From contig JAPLFQ010000005.1 of the NCBI GenBank assembly GCA_026390595.1, forward strand, positions 124,001-188,000: a stretch of DNA of 64,000 nucleotides, read 5' to 3'. Shown here in pieces: positions 6,350 to 55,643 of this stretch. The notes under the pieces were generated by a model. It had not been told where the DNA came from. It was given only the letters and a program-made list of their open reading frames with translations, and did no database searches. The first letter of the stretch is position 1, and each line of letters opens with the position of its first letter. Position numbers and translations under genes: made by a program. Source of the DNA: Ignavibacteriales bacterium (GTDB lineage: Bacteria; Bacteroidota; Ignavibacteria; UBA10030).

Positions 6350-6589
6350 AACGACTTCACTCAAATATACGCAAATCCCACAAATTTTCAAAACTATGAA
6401 ATCTCTTGTGGGAAGACTGCACCTGGGTGAGCCTGCACGGTCGGAGCACGGCATGCCGCGCCCCGACGATGCGGCCATTTCGTCTCCAGGCGAGAATGTC
6501 GATGCTTGATTCTAATGCTTACAGCGGAAGAAAACGCCTGGGAATTTCCTATGTCGAATATCGAATAGCGAATCTTGAAGTTTGGGTTG

Positions 6590-13112: not shown

Positions 13113-13124
13113 TGTCTGGATGGT

Positions 13125-13240
13125 GAGCGGTCAGCCGTCGGCAGTCAGCTATCAACTAAGAAATGCGCGCTGATTGCTGTTAGCTATTGGCGGTTAGCCT
13201 TTGACTGGAAGCTAAAAGCTAATTGCCAATCGCCAGCTCC
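13125..13240. repeat. TAGC-word intergenic repeat, copy A2 (inverted pair)
   Basis: TTAGCTATTGGCGGTTAGC and, inverted, GCTAAAAGCTAATTGCCAAT form the two arms of an imperfect hairpin. Flanking GGTCAGCCGTCGGCAGTCAGCT is related in style. It fills nearly the whole gap between the corrinoid protein and the convergent PhyH gene. Confidence 0.65.
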
Positions 13241-13257: not shown

Positions 13258-14085
13258 CTATTGTACTAACCCCAGCTTCTTCTCTGCCTCCACGCCCGCT
13301 TCTTCCACACTGATGTGCTTTCTGTCCAGTCGGCCGAATTCCTGTGTTGGCACAATTCCAACCGGGTTGTGCCTGTAGGTGTCGACGCCGCGACAGAGAT
13401 ACGTTTTGAAGTACGGATTGACAGAGAGGTCGCATCTGACGATGGTGCTCGAGTAGCGGATGGTCAGTCCGGCGCGGCGGCGGTCGGAGTTGTTGGCGGG
13501 GGAGCCGTGCACGAGTTTATCATCGTGCAAAGAAAACGCGCCGGCCCTCACTTTGAGCGACACCGCGAGGTCTTCACGATATTGCCCGCCTTCGCATTCG
13601 AGGGTAAGAACAGAATCTGTGCTTGACGAACGGGAGTGTTTGAGCAAGCCCACCTTGTGTGATCCCGGGATCACCTGCATCGCAGCGTTCTGCTCATCGA
13701 CATCTTCCAGCGCCAGCCACACCGTTGCGGAAATTTTGGGCTCGAGCGGCCAATAGTACGTGTCCTGGTGCCAGCCAACCGTCGAGTTGCTACGCGGCGG
13801 CTTGATGAAGAAGTTCGACCCCCAGAGATAGAAGTCGGGACCAAGGATGTCTTCAACGTAATCGAGAATCGCCGGGTTCGTGCAGACATCATAGAGGAAC
13901 CGGCTGCTCTCGTGCCACTCGCGGATCTCCTTGGAGTCCTCGCCCTGGCGAAGAAGCTTCATGAGCTCTTCGAGTCCTTTGTTGAGCCCGCTCACTTGTT
14001 GCGGCGTGAACACCGGCGGCATACCAAAAATGTAGCCGTTGGTTGCGTAAAATTTTTGTTGGTCCTCTGTAAGGCGCTTGCCCAT
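13258..14085 (-). CDS. Phytanoyl-CoA dioxygenase (PhyH) family oxygenase
   Basis: A 275-residue Fe(II)/2-oxoglutarate-dependent dioxygenase. ATG 14085 has AAGGA 7 nt upstream. The iron triad is visible: H106-x-D108 in GWHQDTYYW, and H193 in KLVHGSPANN, followed by an arginine-rich strand (DRRRAGLTIRYSS) expected to bind the 2-oxoglutarate carboxylate. PhyH enzymes hydroxylate varied small molecules such as fatty acyl-CoAs, ectoine and secondary metabolites, and the substrate cannot be told here. There is no signal peptide, so it is cytoplasmic. It needs oxygen, which contrasts with the anaerobe-style one-carbon cluster beside it. It stands alone between repeat-filled gaps. Confidence 0.9.
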   Translation of the reverse strand: MGKRLTEDQQKFYATNGYIFGMPPVFTPQQVSGLNKGLEELMKLLRQGEDSKEIREWHESSRFLYDVCTNPAILDYVEDILGPDFYLWGSNFFIKPPRSNSTVGWHQDTYYWPLEPKISATVWLALEDVDEQNAAMQVIPGSHKVGLLKHSRSSSTDSVLTLECEGGQYREDLAVSLKVRAGAFSLHDDKLVHGSPANNSDRRRAGLTIRYSSTIVRCDLSVNPYFKTYLCRGVDTYRHNPVGIVPTQEFGRLDRKHISVEEAGVEAEKKLGLVQ

Positions 14086-14097
14086 GGGTGTTCCTTT

Positions 14098-14260
14098 GAT
14101 TGTCGATTTCCGATTGTCGATGAAAGATTGTTGGTTGGCCGTGCTTCGTCTACCCGTTAGCTCTTGTGAATCTCTCGGGCAGGCTCTCACGATGGGTTCT
14201 CGATTCTCAAGTGTACATTATCAACTGTCCATTGACAGTTGATAATTGACAATTATTTCT
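14098..14260. repeat. GATTGTCGATT and TCAATTGTC word repeats
   Basis: GATTGTCGATTTCCGATTG at 14098 shares the 14-mer GATTGTCGATTTCC with 31847-31860. At 14217-14258 TTATCAACTGTCCATTGACA is followed by GTTGATAATTGACAATT, giving an inverted repeat. Both lie in the 14086-14554 gap. Confidence 0.5.
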
Positions 14261-14453: not shown

Positions 14454-14550
14454 TATTTAGCGATCAGCGATGAGCGGTTGGCTGAGTTCTCCATGTGCCA
14501 GGCAAGAACCGGCCCACAGCTGACAGCTGATTGCTGACCGCTGATTGCTT
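14454..14550. repeat. AGCTGA-word intergenic repeat, copy A3 (variant)
   Basis: ATTTAGCGATCAGCGATGAG at the left end and CAGCTGACAGCTGATTGCTG then ACCGCTGATTGC at the right. It is a variant of the TAGC-word family. Between this and the repeats further left, 14261-14453 shows no gene I can support. Confidence 0.5.
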
Positions 14551-17384: not shown

Positions 17385-17777
17385 ATGGTCTACTTATACG
17401 AGGAGTTGACGCGGAAAATTATTGGGTGCTTTTTCGAAGTATATAACTCGCTTGGGTAGGGTTTCTTGGAAAAAGTATACGAACGCGCACTGATGATTGA
17501 CCTGGCCGAGGAGGGATTGGCTGTTCAAAACCAGGCCCCGGTGGGTGTTCATTACAAAGATTTGCTCGTCGGAGAATATTTTGCGGACATCATCGTAGAG
17601 CATACGATTGTCCTTGAGCTCAAGGCGGCTGAATTTGTGGCGGAAGAACATGAATTGCAGCTGATCAACTACCTGAAAGCGACCGATCTTGAGGTTGGGA
17701 TTCTGTTGAACTTTGGGAAGAAGCCAGAGATCCGGCGGAAGATTTTCACCAATGACAGGAAGAGTTTGAACCGGTGA
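17385..17777 (+). pseudogene. GxxExxY family protein interrupted by an in-frame TAG
   Basis: ATG 17385 follows a strong ribosome site (GGAGG). The first 24 codons encode MVYLYEELTRKIIGCFFEVY followed by NSLG, the typical N-terminus of GxxExxY proteins. Codon 25 is TAG (17457-17459). The same frame then continues GFLEKVYERAL through ELKAAE and LINYLKATDLEVGILLNFG to the normal C-terminus at 17777. Family members have Y or P between LG and GFLE, and TAG is one base from TAT/TAC. So a single nonsense mutation, a sequencing error or amber readthrough explains the break. Function of the family is unknown; a nuclease-like fold has been suggested. A hairpin repeat starts 3 nt after the stop. Confidence 0.8.
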
Positions 17778-17779
17778 AT

Positions 17780-17865
17780 GGCACACAGATGAGACAGATG
17801 GTACAGATTTACACTGATTGATCAATCTGTGGTCATCGCGTGCTTTTTCCGTGTCATCAGTGTTC
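17780..17865. repeat. Intergenic hairpin repeat, 'CACAGATG' family, copy 2
   Basis: GGCACACAGATGAGACAGATG at the left and GTGCTTTTTCCGTGTCATCA at the right, with a GATTGATCAATC palindrome at the centre. It matches 29441-29527 in word order and spacing, and more loosely 790-888. It begins just past the GxxExxY stop and ends 57 nt before the GH106 start, so it should be transcribed into the GH106 leader. Confidence 0.7.
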
Positions 17866-20973: not shown

Positions 20974-20985
20974 GTCAACACCTTC

Positions 20986-21025
20986 GCAGTTGGCGGTTAG
21001 CTAACAGCCAATAGCTGATAGCCAG
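20986..21025. repeat. TAGC-word intergenic repeat, copy A4
   Basis: GTTGGCGGTTAGCTAACAGC then CAATAGCTGATAGCC, with a central GTTAGCTAAC palindrome. It lies between the convergent GH106 and hrpB genes. Confidence 0.6.
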
Positions 21026-23599: not shown

Positions 23600-23667
23600 G
23601 GCGATTAGCTTTTAGCTATTAGCGGTTAGCCAATGAGCGTTTCAAGCCAACAGCTAATGGCCATCGG
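23600..23667. repeat. TAGC-word intergenic repeat, copy A5 (inverted pair)
   Basis: GCGATTAGCTTTTAGCTATT then AGCGGTTAGCC form the left arm, and AGCCAACAGCTAATGGCC is the inverted right arm. It lies in the gap between divergently transcribed hrpB and the sigma factor gene. The remainder (23668-23773) should contain the sigma promoter, but none is evident. Confidence 0.65.
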
Positions 23668-26262: not shown

Positions 26263-26362
26263 TTCCATCTGACTGCCGAAGGCTGATAGCTGAGCGCTGA
26301 GTGCCGATTGTGCCTGGATCAATATCGAACAATCGAATGTAGAATAATGAAGTAGCGTATTG

Positions 26363-31808: not shown

Positions 31809-31920
31809 CATTGTCGATTAACCCGGCGTGAAACCTGGAATTGTCGATTGTCGATTTCCAGTTGTCGATTCGATAAAACCCAGAACTTGAAACTCGAAAC
31901 TTTAAACCCAAGACTCTAAA
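31809..31920. repeat. GATTGTCGATT and AACTTGAAACTC word repeats inside Bat operon
   Basis: ATTGTCGATT occurs several times in 31809-31873. A 21-nt word at 31875-31895 (AAAACCCAGAACTTGAAACT plus C) has an exact inverse copy at 55597-55617. Both fill the moxR-DUF58 gap, which is usually very short in Bat operons. Confidence 0.6.
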
Positions 31921-31937
31921 CTCGTTCTTGCTCCGCT

Positions 31938-32842: not shown

Positions 32843-33784
32843 ATGAAACGGATCGTTACCGGCATATTGCTTGTGCTTTTCGCCGTGGCGGCCCGGGCTC
32901 AGGAACCCCGGGTCACAGCGCGCACGGACTCCGCTCAATATAAGATCGGAGACTGGATTCTTCTGCACGTTTCTGCTGAATTGCCGGCAGATGTGGATTC
33001 CCTCGCTCCGGCGGTCAGAGACAGCGTTGGCGCCTTCGAGGTTCTTGCCATCGACGCCCCTCGCGCCGCAGGCGGGCGTCAGGAATGGGTTTTCAAGCTT
33101 ACGATGTTCGATACGGGAGACGTGTTCATTCCTCCCGTGGCGTTCTGGTACAAACACCGGCAGGACACCCTGCAACGCATCGCTTATTCCAATCCAATTT
33201 CTCTTTCCATCGTGAGCATACCGTTCGATCCCAAGGGGGATATCAAGGACATCAAGCCACCGCTGGATGCTCCGTGGAGATTCGAAGACTTCCTGCCGTA
33301 CCTGATAGCTCTTCTGGTTCTTGCGCTCGCTGCTCTCGGATACTATTACTATCGCAGGTGGAAGAAACGGCGTGAGGAGGGGTTTGTACCGATCAAACCG
33401 TCCATACCTCCGGGTCAGGTGGCGCTCTCGGCATTACGCGTCCTTGAAGAGAAACACCTGTGGCAGCAGGGAATGGTCAAGCAGTACTATTCCGAGGTGA
33501 CAGAAATCGTCCGCCGATTCGTCGAGGATCAATATGGCGTGCTTGCCCTTGAATCGACATCGGATGAAATCCTCGCGCAGCTCCTGAAGCTCCCTGAAGC
33601 TCAAGCGCTGCTCAAAGAATTTCGCTCCTTCTTTACCACGGCAGATCTCGTCAAATTCGCGAAGTATGTCCCGGCCCCCGAGGATCACGACCATGAACTT
33701 CGCTGGGCATACGAAATTGTCCGGGCCATGATCCCGAAACCGACACCTCAACCGGAAGAGCAGGAGGTGGAGAATGTTCGGTGA
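32843..33784 (+). CDS. Bat operon exported protein with one TM segment (BatX/DUF4381-like)
   Basis: A 313-residue protein with a signal peptide (MKRIVTGILLVLFAVAARAQ). An extracytoplasmic beta domain follows (KIGDWILLHVSAELPADVDS, WVFKLTMFDTGDVFIPPVAF). A TM segment (about 156-174, PYLIALLVLALAALGYYYYR) precedes a basic cytoplasmic helical domain containing FVEDQYGVLALESTSDEILA. The layout is that of the protein found between DUF58 and BatA in Bacteroidota operons. ATG 32843 starts the signal; the TTG 36 nt earlier does not. It overlaps batA by 11 nt. Confidence 0.85.
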   Translation: MKRIVTGILLVLFAVAARAQEPRVTARTDSAQYKIGDWILLHVSAELPADVDSLAPAVRDSVGAFEVLAIDAPRAAGGRQEWVFKLTMFDTGDVFIPPVAFWYKHRQDTLQRIAYSNPISLSIVSIPFDPKGDIKDIKPPLDAPWRFEDFLPYLIALLVLALAALGYYYYRRWKKRREEGFVPIKPSIPPGQVALSALRVLEEKHLWQQGMVKQYYSEVTEIVRRFVEDQYGVLALESTSDEILAQLLKLPEAQALLKEFRSFFTTADLVKFAKYVPAPEDHDHELRWAYEIVRAMIPKPTPQPEEQEVENVR

Positions 33785-34766
33785 CGGGTTTGCATATCCA
33801 TGGGTGCTTTGGTTCCTGTTCCTGATTCCGGTGCTCGGATTCGTCTTCTGGAGACGGCGAAGAACGATGGTCACAGAGGTGACCTTCTCTTCCCTTCAGC
33901 CGTTCGACCATACGCCCCGCACGCTGCGTGAGAGACTGCATCTGGCACCGCTCTGGCTCCGCCTCGCCGCGCTCGCTCTCTTTATTGTCGCCCTGGCGCG
34001 CCCGCAATCGGTATCCAGCAAAGAAAATGTGTCGACAGAGGGAATCGACATCGTGCTTGTTCTTGACATCTCCGGCAGTATGCTTGCCGAAGATTTTACG
34101 CCGAACCGCATGCAGGCGGCGAAACAGGTTGCCGAGGAATTCATCGACGGGCGCGCGAACGACCGCATCGGCCTGGTGATTTTTTCAGCCGAGAGTTTCA
34201 CGCAGTGTCCGCTTACAACCGACTATCCGGTTCTGAAATCACTCCTCAAGGAAGTGAAGAACGGCATGATCACCGACGGAACAGCGATCGGGCTCGCCCT
34301 CGCCAACGGCGTCAACCGTCTCAAAGACAGCAAGGCAAAGAGTCGTGTGATGATCCTGTTGACGGACGGTGTGAACAACCGGGGCGAAATTGATCCCATC
34401 ACGGCAGCGAAGATCGCGGCGACATTTGCCATTCGTGTCTATACTGTTGGAGTCGGAGCTCAGGGCGAAGCCCCTTATCCCGTTGAAACGCCCTTTGGCA
34501 TACAGCGAAGGCTCATTCCTGTCGACCTCGACGAAAAAACGCTCTCGGCGGTTGCCGATATGACCGGCGGCAAGTACTACCGCGCCACCGATAACAGAAA
34601 GCTGAAGGCGATTTATAAGGAAATTGATCAGCTCGAACGTTCCAAAATTGAAGTGACCGCCTACAAACGGTATTCGGAGAAGTTTTATGGGTGGCTTTTT
34701 GGGGGGTTGTTTATGTTGATGCTGGAATTCGGATTGGCAACTACGGTGTTGAGGAAGATTCCGTAG
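33774..34766 (+). CDS. batA: BatA, von Willebrand factor A membrane protein
   Basis: A 330-residue protein: two N-terminal TM segments (8-26 and 60-75, the BatA-type head), then a VWA domain with complete MIDAS. D98-I-S-G-S (DISGSM), DGTAIGLALANG (second site) and LLTDGVNN (third). A C-terminal TM segment (about 303-322) follows. Bat proteins form an inner-membrane complex linked to aerotolerance and virulence in Bacteroides and Leptospira relatives. Stop at 34766 is followed directly by an inverted repeat and the S23 gene, which separate it from batB. Confidence 0.93.
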   Translation: MFGDGFAYPWVLWFLFLIPVLGFVFWRRRRTMVTEVTFSSLQPFDHTPRTLRERLHLAPLWLRLAALALFIVALARPQSVSSKENVSTEGIDIVLVLDISGSMLAEDFTPNRMQAAKQVAEEFIDGRANDRIGLVIFSAESFTQCPLTTDYPVLKSLLKEVKNGMITDGTAIGLALANGVNRLKDSKAKSRVMILLTDGVNNRGEIDPITAAKIAATFAIRVYTVGVGAQGEAPYPVETPFGIQRRLIPVDLDEKTLSAVADMTGGKYYRATDNRKLKAIYKEIDQLERSKIEVTAYKRYSEKFYGWLFGGLFMLMLEFGLATTVLRKIP

Positions 34767-34770
34767 CAAA

Positions 34771-34806
34771 AAGCCGTTAGCTGTTGGCAATTAGCTGTTA
34801 GCGAAT
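34771..34806. repeat. TAGC-word repeat A7, left flank of S23 cassette
   Basis: AAGCCGTTAGCTGTTGGCAA then TTAGCTGTTAGCG. It begins 4 nt after the batA stop. The inverted counterpart lies at 35201-35232. Confidence 0.7.
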
Positions 34807-34846
34807 AACTCCGATTGTCTTCGTGCCATTGTGTGAAAGCCTGACT

Positions 34847-35200
34847 ATGAAAGATTTCCGGGAATTACGCGTATGGCAGAAAGCTCATAGCCTCACGTTA
34901 CACGTCTACAACGTGACAAAAAAGTTTCCCAAAGAGGAAATGTACGGATTGACAAGCCAGATCCGTAGAGCAAGCAGTTCGATTGCTGCCAATATCGCAG
35001 AAGGATGTGGCCGAAAGACAGATGCAGATTCTTGCCGGTTCTTGGTTGTCGCTTTGGGCTCCGGCACCGAGCTCGAGTATCACCTTTTGCTTTCACACGA
35101 TCTCAAGCTCCTGACTGATGTCGAATACGAGTCACTCCAGCAAGAGTTGACCGAGATCAAAAAGATGCTCAACGCTTTTATCACGAGACTTTCAACTTGA
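34847..35200 (+). CDS. Four-helix-bundle (S23 / 23S rRNA intervening-sequence) protein inserted in Bat operon
   Basis: A 117-residue S23-type four-helix-bundle protein. It has KDFRELRVWQKAHSLTLHVY, then FPKEEMYGLTSQIRRASSSI, AANIAEGCGRKT, SCRFLVVALGSGTELEYHLL and LQQELTEIKKMLNAF. ATG 34847 gives the family-standard start MKDFRELRVWQ. The family is named from ORFs in 23S rRNA intervening sequences, but stand-alone copies are common, and the function is unknown (nucleic-acid or reverse-transcriptase accessory roles are known for related Avd proteins). It is not a known Bat component. It is bracketed by inverted TAGC-word repeats in an operon that is otherwise tightly packed. Confidence 0.9.
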   Translation: MKDFRELRVWQKAHSLTLHVYNVTKKFPKEEMYGLTSQIRRASSSIAANIAEGCGRKTDADSCRFLVVALGSGTELEYHLLLSHDLKLLTDVEYESLQQELTEIKKMLNAFITRLST

Positions 35201-35232
35201 AGCCAGCAGCTAATAGCTAAAAGCCAACAGCC
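35201..35232. repeat. TAGC-word repeat A8, right flank of S23 cassette
   Basis: AGCCAGCAGCTAATAGCTAA then AAGCCAACAGCC. Its reverse complement (GGCTGTTGGCTTTTAGCTAT...) resembles the left flank. It begins one base after the S23 stop and ends 4 nt before the batB ATG, so batB has no purine-rich ribosome site in front of it. Confidence 0.7.
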
Positions 35233-35235
35233 CTT

Positions 35236-37026
35236 ATGCTTCGTTTCGCACATTCAACATATCTCTGGGCCTTGTTGCTCATTCCAGCGCTTGCTCTCGC
35301 CTTCTTTTTCCTTCATCACCGGCGAAAGCAGTTGCTGCGCGAGTTCGTCTCTGAGCCCTTGGTTGCTCAGCTGGCACCCGATGCGAGCACTGCCAAAAGA
35401 ACCGTGAAACAGGCGCTCTTCCTGTTCTCGCTTGCGTGCCTGATTGTAGCCGCGGCGAATCCGCAGGTAGGAACGCGGCTCGAAGAGATTAAGCGGGAAG
35501 GTATAGATCTCTTCATTGCGCTGGATGTTTCCCTCAGCATGAAGGCCGAGGACATCCGTCCCAGCCGGCTTGAGAAAGCAAAGCGAGATGTTTCCGATTT
35601 GTTGCGTAAATTGCAGGGGGATCGCGTTGGGCTTGTGGTGTTTGCAGGAGAGGCTTTTGTTCAGTTTCCTTTGACGGCGGATTACTCGGCAGCGGATCTG
35701 TTTCTCAATGCGGTCGATGTCGAGGCGGTGCCGGTGCCGGGAACAATGATCGGCAGCGCTATTGAAGTCTCGCTGAAATCTTTCCGGAAAGACCTTCCGA
35801 CGCAGAAGGCCATTGTGGTTGTCAGCGACGGCGAAAACACCGAAGGTGATGTTGCCGGTGCGGTGGAGAAGGCGAGGAAAGAGGGGGCACGGGTGTTTAC
35901 GATCGGCATGGGAACGCCGGAAGGAAACCCCATCCCTATCTATGGGGCAAGCGGGGAGCGAGTTGATTACAAGCATGACCGCGCCGGAAATATCGTTCTC
36001 ACGAAACTCGACGAGTCGGCACTCCAGCAGATCGCCCTCGCAACAGGCGGCAGCTACCGTCGGGCAACAAACGCCGGAAACGAAATCGACGAAATTCATA
36101 AAGAGCTCGCTTCGTTGCAGAAGACCGAGATGGCAAGTCTCCAGGTCACCGGATTCGAAGATCAGTTTCAGTACCCGCTCACGCTGGCGATTCTTCTGCT
36201 CATCATCGAGCTTTTGCTTTCGGAGCGCCGCGGCAAATTCCTGACCCGACTCATGCGCATCCTCCCTGTTGGGCGCGTGGTCCCGCTTCTCATGATCGTC
36301 TGCATCGCGTCCGCGTCGGCTCAGACGGTTCGCTCGCACGTTGCGAGCGGCAATGAGGCATACGCAAAAACAAAATACGCCGACGCCGAGGCAGAATACA
36401 AGAAAGCCCTCGCAAAAGACACCTCTTCCCGCGAGGCTCAGTTCAATCTCGGCAATGCATACTACAAGCAGCAGCGCGCAGATGAGGCGCAGCGGATCTA
36501 TGCAAGCCGCCTCGCGGCCTCCAAGTCGCCTGCGGACAAGGAAATGGCTTATTATAACATCGGCAACACCTTCTTCAAATCGAATAAATTCGAGGAGAGC
36601 GTCGAAAGCTACAAGCGTTCGCTCCGATTGGATCCGAAGGACGAGGACGCGCGCTATAACTACCTTCTCGCAAGAGACCGCCTGAAGAAGCAGCAGGACC
36701 AGAAGAAACAGGACAAGCAGGACAAAAAAGACAACAAGGATAACAAAGACAAACAAGACCAGAACCAACAGAACAAGCAAGACCAGCAGAAGAATCAGGA
36801 TCAACAAAACCAGGACAAGCAGGACGAAAAGAACCAGCAGCAACAGCAACAACCGCCGCAACAACAGCAAGCGAAACCGGATCAGACGAGCCAGCAGCAA
36901 AAAAACCAGATGCAGAAGCAACAGGCTGAACGCATCCTCGATGCTCTCCGGAACAACGAAAAGGATATTCAAAAGAAGCTGAGGAAGCGGGTGGCTTCAA
37001 AAATCATCATTGAGAAAGATTGGTAG
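35236..37026 (+). CDS. batB: BatB-BatC fusion: VWA domain, TPR repeats and K/Q/D-rich tail
   Basis: A 596-residue fusion. Residues 1-330 are BatB: TM segments near 8-26 and 58-73, VWA MIDAS D97-V-S99-L-S101, TMIGSAIEVSLKSF and VVVSDGENTEGD, then a TM segment near 310-325. A second hydrophobic segment (about 339-358) ends ASAQ. This looks like the former BatC signal. TPR units follow (GNEAYAKTKYADAEAEYKKA; QFNLGNAYYKQQRADEAQRI; MAYYNIGNTFFKSNKFEESV). Then about 75 residues of K, Q, D and N, and a conserved C-terminal helix (AERILDALRNNEKDIQKKLR). In many genomes these are two genes. The tail's low complexity may be error-prone. The stop overlaps the batD GTG. Confidence 0.9.
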   Translation: MLRFAHSTYLWALLLIPALALAFFFLHHRRKQLLREFVSEPLVAQLAPDASTAKRTVKQALFLFSLACLIVAAANPQVGTRLEEIKREGIDLFIALDVSLSMKAEDIRPSRLEKAKRDVSDLLRKLQGDRVGLVVFAGEAFVQFPLTADYSAADLFLNAVDVEAVPVPGTMIGSAIEVSLKSFRKDLPTQKAIVVVSDGENTEGDVAGAVEKARKEGARVFTIGMGTPEGNPIPIYGASGERVDYKHDRAGNIVLTKLDESALQQIALATGGSYRRATNAGNEIDEIHKELASLQKTEMASLQVTGFEDQFQYPLTLAILLLIIELLLSERRGKFLTRLMRILPVGRVVPLLMIVCIASASAQTVRSHVASGNEAYAKTKYADAEAEYKKALAKDTSSREAQFNLGNAYYKQQRADEAQRIYASRLAASKSPADKEMAYYNIGNTFFKSNKFEESVESYKRSLRLDPKDEDARYNYLLARDRLKKQQDQKKQDKQDKKDNKDNKDKQDQNQQNKQDQQKNQDQQNQDKQDEKNQQQQQQPPQQQQAKPDQTSQQQKNQMQKQQAERILDALRNNEKDIQKKLRKRVASKIIIEKDW

Positions 37027-42458: not shown

Positions 42459-42501
42459 AGTTCCGTATAATGTGTCGCTTTTTCGGGGAGAATACAATGT
42501 G

Positions 42502-42556
42502 GCGGGTAGCGGTTGGCCGCTAGCTGATAGCCGATAGCTAAAAGCTAATTACCCGT
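42502..42556. repeat. TAGC-word intergenic repeat, copy A9
   Basis: GGCGGGTAGCGGTTGGCCGC then TAGCTGATAGCCGATAGCTA and AAAGCTAATTACCCG. The outer GCGGGTA/TACCCG-like ends make it close to an inverted repeat. It lies upstream of the SpoIIE gene. Confidence 0.65.
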
Positions 42557-55018: not shown

Positions 55019-55591
55019 ATGAGCAAAAAACAGAAACATGCCGAAGCTCCACGACCACCGAAAAGAAACACGAAATCCATCGCTGCAGTTGCCGGCACCG
55101 TGTTCCTGATCCTTGCGCTGATCGGCGTACTGACGTATCAGCCGTCGAACAAGCCGGCTCCTCTCACTCAACCGCCAACCCCAAGCGCGCAGCAGGAGGC
55201 ATACGAATTCGTGAAACAGGGTGAACTTCGTTTTCAGTCAGCAAAACAGGATTTTATCTCCGCGATCGACATTGAGCTTGCACAGGACGATTCAAGACGG
55301 CAATTAGGGCTGATGTATCGCGATAAGCTTGCAGAGAACCAGGGGATGTTGTTTATCTTCGAGGGGGATGAGGCGAGGGCTTTTTGGATGAAGAATACGG
55401 TTCTTTCGCTGGACATGATTTTCGTGAACAGCAAAAATGAAGTTGTTACAATCCACAAAAACACGACTCCGTATTCCGAACAATCTTACGCGTCGTCAAA
55501 ACCGGCACAATTCGTCGTTGAGGTCAACGCTGGATACACAGACAAACACAAGATCTCCGTGGGCGACCGGATTGTGTGGAGTAGGTTTTGA
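55019..55591 (+). CDS. DUF192 family protein, membrane-anchored
   Basis: A 190-residue protein: TM anchor (about 21-42), proline-rich linker, then a DUF192 domain. Signature: IDIELAQDDSRRQLGLMYRD (about 81-100), NQGMLFIFEGDEARAFWMKN, TVLSLDMIFVNSKNEVVTIH, TTPYSEQ and FVVEVNAGYTDKHKISVGDR. Extracytoplasmic, function unknown; a small beta-barrel with a conserved polar cleft. It begins 26 nt after TIGR03545, so likely in the same operon. Confidence 0.93.
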   Translation: MSKKQKHAEAPRPPKRNTKSIAAVAGTVFLILALIGVLTYQPSNKPAPLTQPPTPSAQQEAYEFVKQGELRFQSAKQDFISAIDIELAQDDSRRQLGLMYRDKLAENQGMLFIFEGDEARAFWMKNTVLSLDMIFVNSKNEVVTIHKNTTPYSEQSYASSKPAQFVVEVNAGYTDKHKISVGDRIVWSRF

Positions 55592-55596
55592 GTTGT

Positions 55597-55617
55597 GAGT
55601 TTCAAGTTCTGGGTTTT
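55597..55617. repeat. Inverse copy of the AACTTGAAACTC 21-mer
   Basis: GAGTTTCAAGTTCTGGGTTT plus T, exact reverse complement of 31875-31895. In the 52 nt gap between convergent genes. Confidence 0.6.
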
Positions 55618-55643
55618 GGTTTTCGCTCAACCGTTGTCGGTTT

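Follow-up and report, generated by a model that had tools for sequence, protein, structure and literature searches.

Why does a gene of the S23 family lie between batA and batB, and do the word repeats at its two ends belong to it? The original prediction described, in a stretch of 64,000 nucleotides (hereafter the window), the succession of batA, word repeat, 117-residue S23 gene, inverted repeat and batB, and this layout is borne out (Table 1): the arms form a 23-nt inverted repeat with 87% complementarity and 406 nt between them, and compared with 413 control pairs slid along the window their match has P=0.002. The insertion point is the batA-batB junction and not a 23S rRNA helix, 23S rRNA motifs were not found in any of the fetched S23 loci, and an Rfam search of window 12-45 kb returned 0 matches. 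In the cassettes that were inspected, no transposase or recombinase ORF lies between the arms, and the S23 ORF stands alone. This agrees with the predicted four-helix-bundle protein as the only encoded factor, while that this protein also drives the movement is what we infer.

Table 1. Positions of the batA-batB cassette and of gene-less TAGC-word arrays in the window
Feature	Position	Strand	Evidence
batA, host gene upstream (VWA, BatA N-terminal domain)	33774..34766	+	Pfam VWA 6.3e-24, BatA 1.4e-13; ORF
Left heptamer array, AGCCGTT AGCTGTT GGCAATT AGCTGTT AGC	34772..34802	+	Period 7, inverted partner present
S23 / 23S_rRNA_IVP four-helix-bundle gene, 117 aa, ATG to TGA	34847..35200	+	PF05635, TIGR02436
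Right heptamer array, same word family reverse-complemented	about 35204..35232	-	Inverted repeat
batB, host gene downstream (VWA + TPR)	35236..37026	+	ORF, Pfam
Gene-less TAGC-word arrays, inverted (hairpin)	13122..13235	.	
Gene-less TAGC-word arrays, inverted	14459..14549	.	
Gene-less TAGC-word hairpin	20983..21022	.	
Gene-less TAGC-word hairpin	23605..23657	.	
Gene-less TAGC-word array	26275..26310	.	
Gene-less TAGC-word hairpin	42499..42548	.	

The S23 protein of the window matches PF05635 with E=2.5e-41 and 140.6 bits (curated cut-off 33.8) and TIGR02436 with E=3.8e-40 and 136.5 bits (curated cut-off 24), and the source genome holds ten PF05635 genes. There is also a weak match to PF22296 (bAvd), and the score against NF033474 (Avd equivalog) is 36 bits, below the cut-off of 80. 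The AlphaFold model is a four-helix bundle (pLDDT 97.2) with 2gsc as best PDB match (TM 0.95), followed by 2rld and then by the DGR protein Avd (4dwl, TM 0.81); 8ube is a further Avd match of the same fold. As judged from the model, S23 can be assigned with confidence to an Avd-like four-helix bundle fold, with a predicted remote homology to DGR Avd (bAvd; TM about 0.8). In contrast to Avd, S23 genes have no reverse transcriptase alongside, and most relatives lack one. No catalytic domain was recognised in S23, and its invariant polar residues include Q38, R41, S45, N49, E52 and E75. A Xanthomonas relative is reported to be pentameric in PMC4990558, citing Lin 2006.

Mirrored period-7 arrays and their word code

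The association of repeats and gene was examined at 80 S23 loci from one scan, selected by protein motif alone, from Bacteroidota, Firmicutes, Proteobacteria, Acidobacteria, Planctomycetes, Verrucomicrobia, Chloroflexi, archaea and others. With an array threshold of score 10 or more, a period-7 array is present in 78.5% of 158 S23 flanks and, on the same contigs, in 3.0% of 1456 control segments; the corresponding values for periods 5, 6, 8, 9 and 10 in S23 flanks are 0-7%. The threshold is not reached in about a fifth of the flanks of this all-phyla set and in almost half of those of the same-clade set, and a minority of arrays, such as those of an archaeal pair, has period 8. Left and right arms, compared in inverted orientation, reach a mean score of 20.8 within their own locus and 8.1 across loci, the maximum of 5000 partner permutations being 10.05, and the own partner ranks in the top 3 of 78 at 73 loci. 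In phyla far apart from each other, most S23 genes sit between mirrored period-7 arrays. The two archaeal elements of period 8 (L169 and L204, AGCGGTTT) retain the AG start.

Phase alignment of 110 arrays, read inwards, gives the heptamer AGKNNTY, in which the AGK core is steadiest and the centre most variable; its code score is 314, and column-permuted nulls score 199-211. A second S23 subfamily (B) includes the own loci L006-L010, and at 29 more subfamily-B loci period 7 is found in 82% of the flanks, there with the code ATKNNRA. From the word alone, with the locus in question left out, B arrays were classified correctly in 45 of 45 cases and A arrays in 94 of 108, and for A arrays from the clade of the B set the count was 22 of 33 (Fisher P=1.4e-11). 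As the AT content differs between the subfamily sets (57% vs 73%), the link of code and subfamily is strong yet not without confounding. Each locus has a word of its own, and the code that this word obeys depends on the S23 subfamily.

Within the source genome, the arrays were surveyed in stretches totalling about 840 kb, which include 7 S23 genes. Period-7 arrays with scores of at least 13 occur 42 times, compared with 0 in shuffled sequence and 0-5 for other periods, and 8 or 9 of them (about a fifth) are at most about 110 bp away from the 7 sampled S23 genes. All four matched inverted pairs with a spacing of 376-412 nt enclose S23 genes. The own S23 loci have mirrored arrays with a new word nearly everywhere (TTAGCTG, AGTGGTA, AGACGGA, GCAGATT, CGATTGT etc.); some of these arrays are clear by eye alone, and of the loci in this genome and its relatives, about one half to two thirds reach P of about 0.01 or less in the arm alignment against window controls. 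The expected enrichment of repeats beside S23 genes therefore holds for period-7 arrays, both in this genome and across phyla, but not for the TAGC word, which S23 genes do not have in common. TAGC as a general S23 signature had to be given up, because every locus has its own word and the loci have only period, mirror symmetry and code in common; TAGC represents a local form of the general period-7 feature.

The majority of arrays in the own genome lies away from S23 genes, without a gene and often as hairpins. The earlier count of seven or so TAGC repeats without the gene was about right, with at least six in the window. The 4.77-Mb genome has TTAGCTNTTNGC in exact form at 12 separate sites, of which 4 are inside the 64-kb window (binomial P=1.5e-5, or 3.7e-4 if the S23 site is excluded). 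Such likeness of words at neighbouring sites is weak in general (P=0.028) and strong for TAGC in the window only. Further period-7 arrays of the CGAATAT, CGATTGT, AACTCGA and GAGTTTC types are seen at 6544-6584, 14098-14254, 31884-31923 and 55585-55623 of the window, and a PhyH-type dioxygenase gene (13261-14190, minus strand) has several hairpins without a gene around it, which belong to two word types.

Across seven genomes, arrays were counted per 100 kb; their density is 0 in G036, which has no S23 gene, and 2.6, 0, 2.9, 4.4, 13.4 and 13.1 with 1, 2, 10, 10, 11 and 16 S23 genes, respectively. Density and S23 number are correlated with rho 0.89 (P 0.007); if S23 genes per Mb are used, rho is 0.76 (P 0.049). 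A 50-kb stretch of E. coli K-12 contains no arrays, and 50 kb of a Nostoc plasmid contain four. Gene-less arrays abound in DNA rich in S23 genes, and the sampled S23-free DNA contains none.

Occupied and empty sites in relatives

The batA-batB junction holds an S23 gene in G000, G001 (frameshifted), G012 (with a stop) and G013; in G022 the gene is present along with an assembly gap, in G005 the gene is partial at a contig edge, and in G004 it is decayed. The junction is clean and short in G002, G003, G008, G009, G010, G011, G017, G023 and G024, two of which belong to the same genus. These empty states agree with the original view of gene and repeats as one cassette, and they also speak for its having moved into the operon, but a recent insertion is not demonstrable. 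The BatB tree forces at least two gains or losses at this site, the S23 proteins found there group together weakly, and an old insertion followed by repeated loss fits these data. At the same junction of G019 (L075), gene-less arrays of two words (AGATGNA and CACTGTT) are found.

Filled and clean empty states also coexist within the genus at ftsA-ftsZ and gatB-sucC, and at the L003 site the G002 copy without the gene retains word arrays of another kind. In G004, a decayed S23 remnant lies between arrays, which indicates one origin of gene-less sites. As S23 genes at the same site are mostly monophyletic within the genus, the sharing of sites there goes back mostly to old vertical descent combined with losses. 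Sites are nevertheless not always held by the same element: at L002, G000 and G001 differ in S23 lineage and word, and guaB-guaA in betaproteobacteria is occupied by differing words and S23 sequences. At ftsA-ftsZ, orthologous S23 genes have two AGAT-type arms in two species and two AGTA-type arms in two others, and since both arms are switched, the arms change together.

One clear case of arrays travelling with the gene comes from an ANME-1 archaeon and a Methanomicrobiales archaeon, which have 515 nt in common at 88.7% identity, arrays and gene included, in unrelated flanks; the whole array-gene-array unit therefore moved there. With one genome per species, the flanks are too diverged between species to define target-site duplications or exact ends. 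A UvrD-type helicase gene appears to be in two ORFs genus-wide, and in most species the split point has S23 or gene-less arrays (L004, L246-L250).

A putative mobile element and its alternatives

We consider it probable that array, S23 gene and inverted array together constitute a small selfish mobile element. In such an element, the S23 protein would bind the 7-nt-phased words as DNA and would protect or pair both arms, so that the element could insert copies of itself in the short gaps between operon genes, with little harm expected there. S23 itself could carry out the cutting and joining, but host enzymes of replication or repair are the likelier candidates, and the gene-less arrays would be relics or trans-dependent derivatives. 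A concerted process at the DNA level, e.g. slippage combined with template switching in hairpins, might hold the arms alike.

If this is true, a very common gene family receives a context that is linked to function, two old puzzles, the rRNA intervening sequences and the heptanucleotide repeats, are joined, and a protein-DNA code is predicted that can be tested. Mobility would also account for S23 genes in unrelated operons, where guilt by association is misleading. On cyanobacterial plasmids, for instance, S23 genes are found between cas6 and cas4, between cas10 and a gene of the Cmr3 family, and among conjugation genes. Heptamer arrays are present there too, including those of the cas6-cas4 cassette; at some loci, including the one next to cas10, one or both sides are below the array threshold. 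In L313 and L317, S23 genes lie within CRISPR operons, and such positions may explain reports of the 23S rRNA IVP as CRISPR-linked (PMC10910872).

What alternatives exist for a mobile element? The arms could be kept as an RNA stem that separates the S23 mRNA from the transcripts of the host, as in the intervening sequences (IVSs) of 23S rRNA, where RNase III cuts out S23-containing insertions at stems formed by inverted repeats (PMC4990558). The element of the window indeed folds better than its shuffles (z -3.45). However, differences between the arms at 71 loci are compatible with G.U pairing in 95 cases and incompatible in 112 (P=0.27), and without an excess of the former, RNA pairing is not the visible constraint on the arms; a stem would also leave the word code and the empty sites unexplained, and we give it a small chance.

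It is unlikely as well that the arrays are regulatory sites or common repeats prone to slippage, with which S23 genes merely share the repeat-rich intergenic regions. Heptanucleotide repeats with proposed regulatory roles are known from cyanobacteria and Beggiatoaceae (PMC4679880), most arrays of the own genome do not adjoin S23, and slippage does act, as the near-identical S23 cassettes L314 and L315 of Nostoc plasmids differ in the number of heptamer units in the right array. Mere co-occurrence, however, does not provide for mirrored arms far above cross-locus chance in many phyla, for a word code that tracks the S23 subfamily, for the joint movement of arrays and gene in archaea, or for the lack of arrays in sampled S23-free DNA. 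In a milder form, the arrays could be slippage products that are favoured near S23 for another reason.

REPINs have one palindrome family per transposase and no locus-specific words, which argues against non-autonomous S23 elements whose hairpins are moved, REPIN-style, by a tyrosine (Y1/RAYT) transposase. Y1_Tnp genes are present in 36 of 41 relatives, but G026 (99% complete) has 0 Y1_Tnp matches although it carries 4 S23 genes, of which L053 at least has mirrored arrays, and in G038 the arrays are dense and the Y1 matches weak only. The gene-less inverted hairpins do resemble REPINs (PMC3116915), being short and perhaps dependent in trans on one gene family; the S23 elements differ in having no transposase, a word that varies per locus, and heptamer arrays in place of a single REP palindrome. 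We regard dependence on Y1 enzymes as improbable. It is very improbable that S23 works Avd-like with a reverse transcriptase and that the arrays are templated cDNA additions: the fold matches to Avd (4dwl, 8ube), the weak PF22296 match and a heptamer centre more variable than the AG core are in line with it, but 16 of 21 relatives lack RVT_1, among them nearly complete genomes with many S23 genes and arrays such as G031, which makes reverse transcription unlikely and contradicts RT-templated arrays. The own genome has one RVT_1, on a contig other than that of the S23 cassette.

The putative mobile element has close counterparts in the literature. The 23S rRNA IVSs of Leptospira and Coxiella share with it the PF05635 gene, inverted repeats at both ends and a similar size (428 nt in Coxiella), and they are suspected to be selfish or once mobile, the review of rRNA IVSs in PMC4990558 citing an earlier suggestion of mobility. 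Unlike them, S23 cassettes are found at operon junctions, and their ends are coded period-7 arrays with locus-specific words. The cyanobacterial STRR and the TAACTGA repeats of Beggiatoaceae likewise consist of intergenic tandem 7-nt units, but a link to S23 or mirrored arms was not found for them in PMC4679880, which describes the TAACTGA repeats and mentions neither S23 nor a helix bundle. A search of open-access full text, with subscription papers outside its scope, found no paper tying S23 genes to heptamer arrays. Mirrored arrays with a separate word at each locus, around most S23 genes of bacteria and archaea, suggest a mobile element of a kind not described so far, which would slip in between operon genes.

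A second gene family has a similar arrangement. GxxExxY genes (PF13366) likewise are small genes amid mirrored word arrays, but they belong to the PD-(D/E)XK nuclease family, and their words (CRCNRAG) have 8-9 nt and usually come in three units. In G020, the batA-batB junction itself (L216) is held by a GxxExxY gene with mirrored CGCNGAGNN arrays. More tentatively, S23 and GxxExxY may represent a new class of mobile elements without a transposase, with tandem-word ends, a word length and letter code specific to the family, a private word per insertion and ends that are rewritten together; cyanobacterial heptamer repeats and rRNA IVSs would then belong to this phenomenon. The window contains a GxxExxY gene with an in-frame TAG (17403-17738, plus strand), which is followed by the 9-nt words ACACAGATG, AGACAGATG and GTACAGATT at about 17780-17815.
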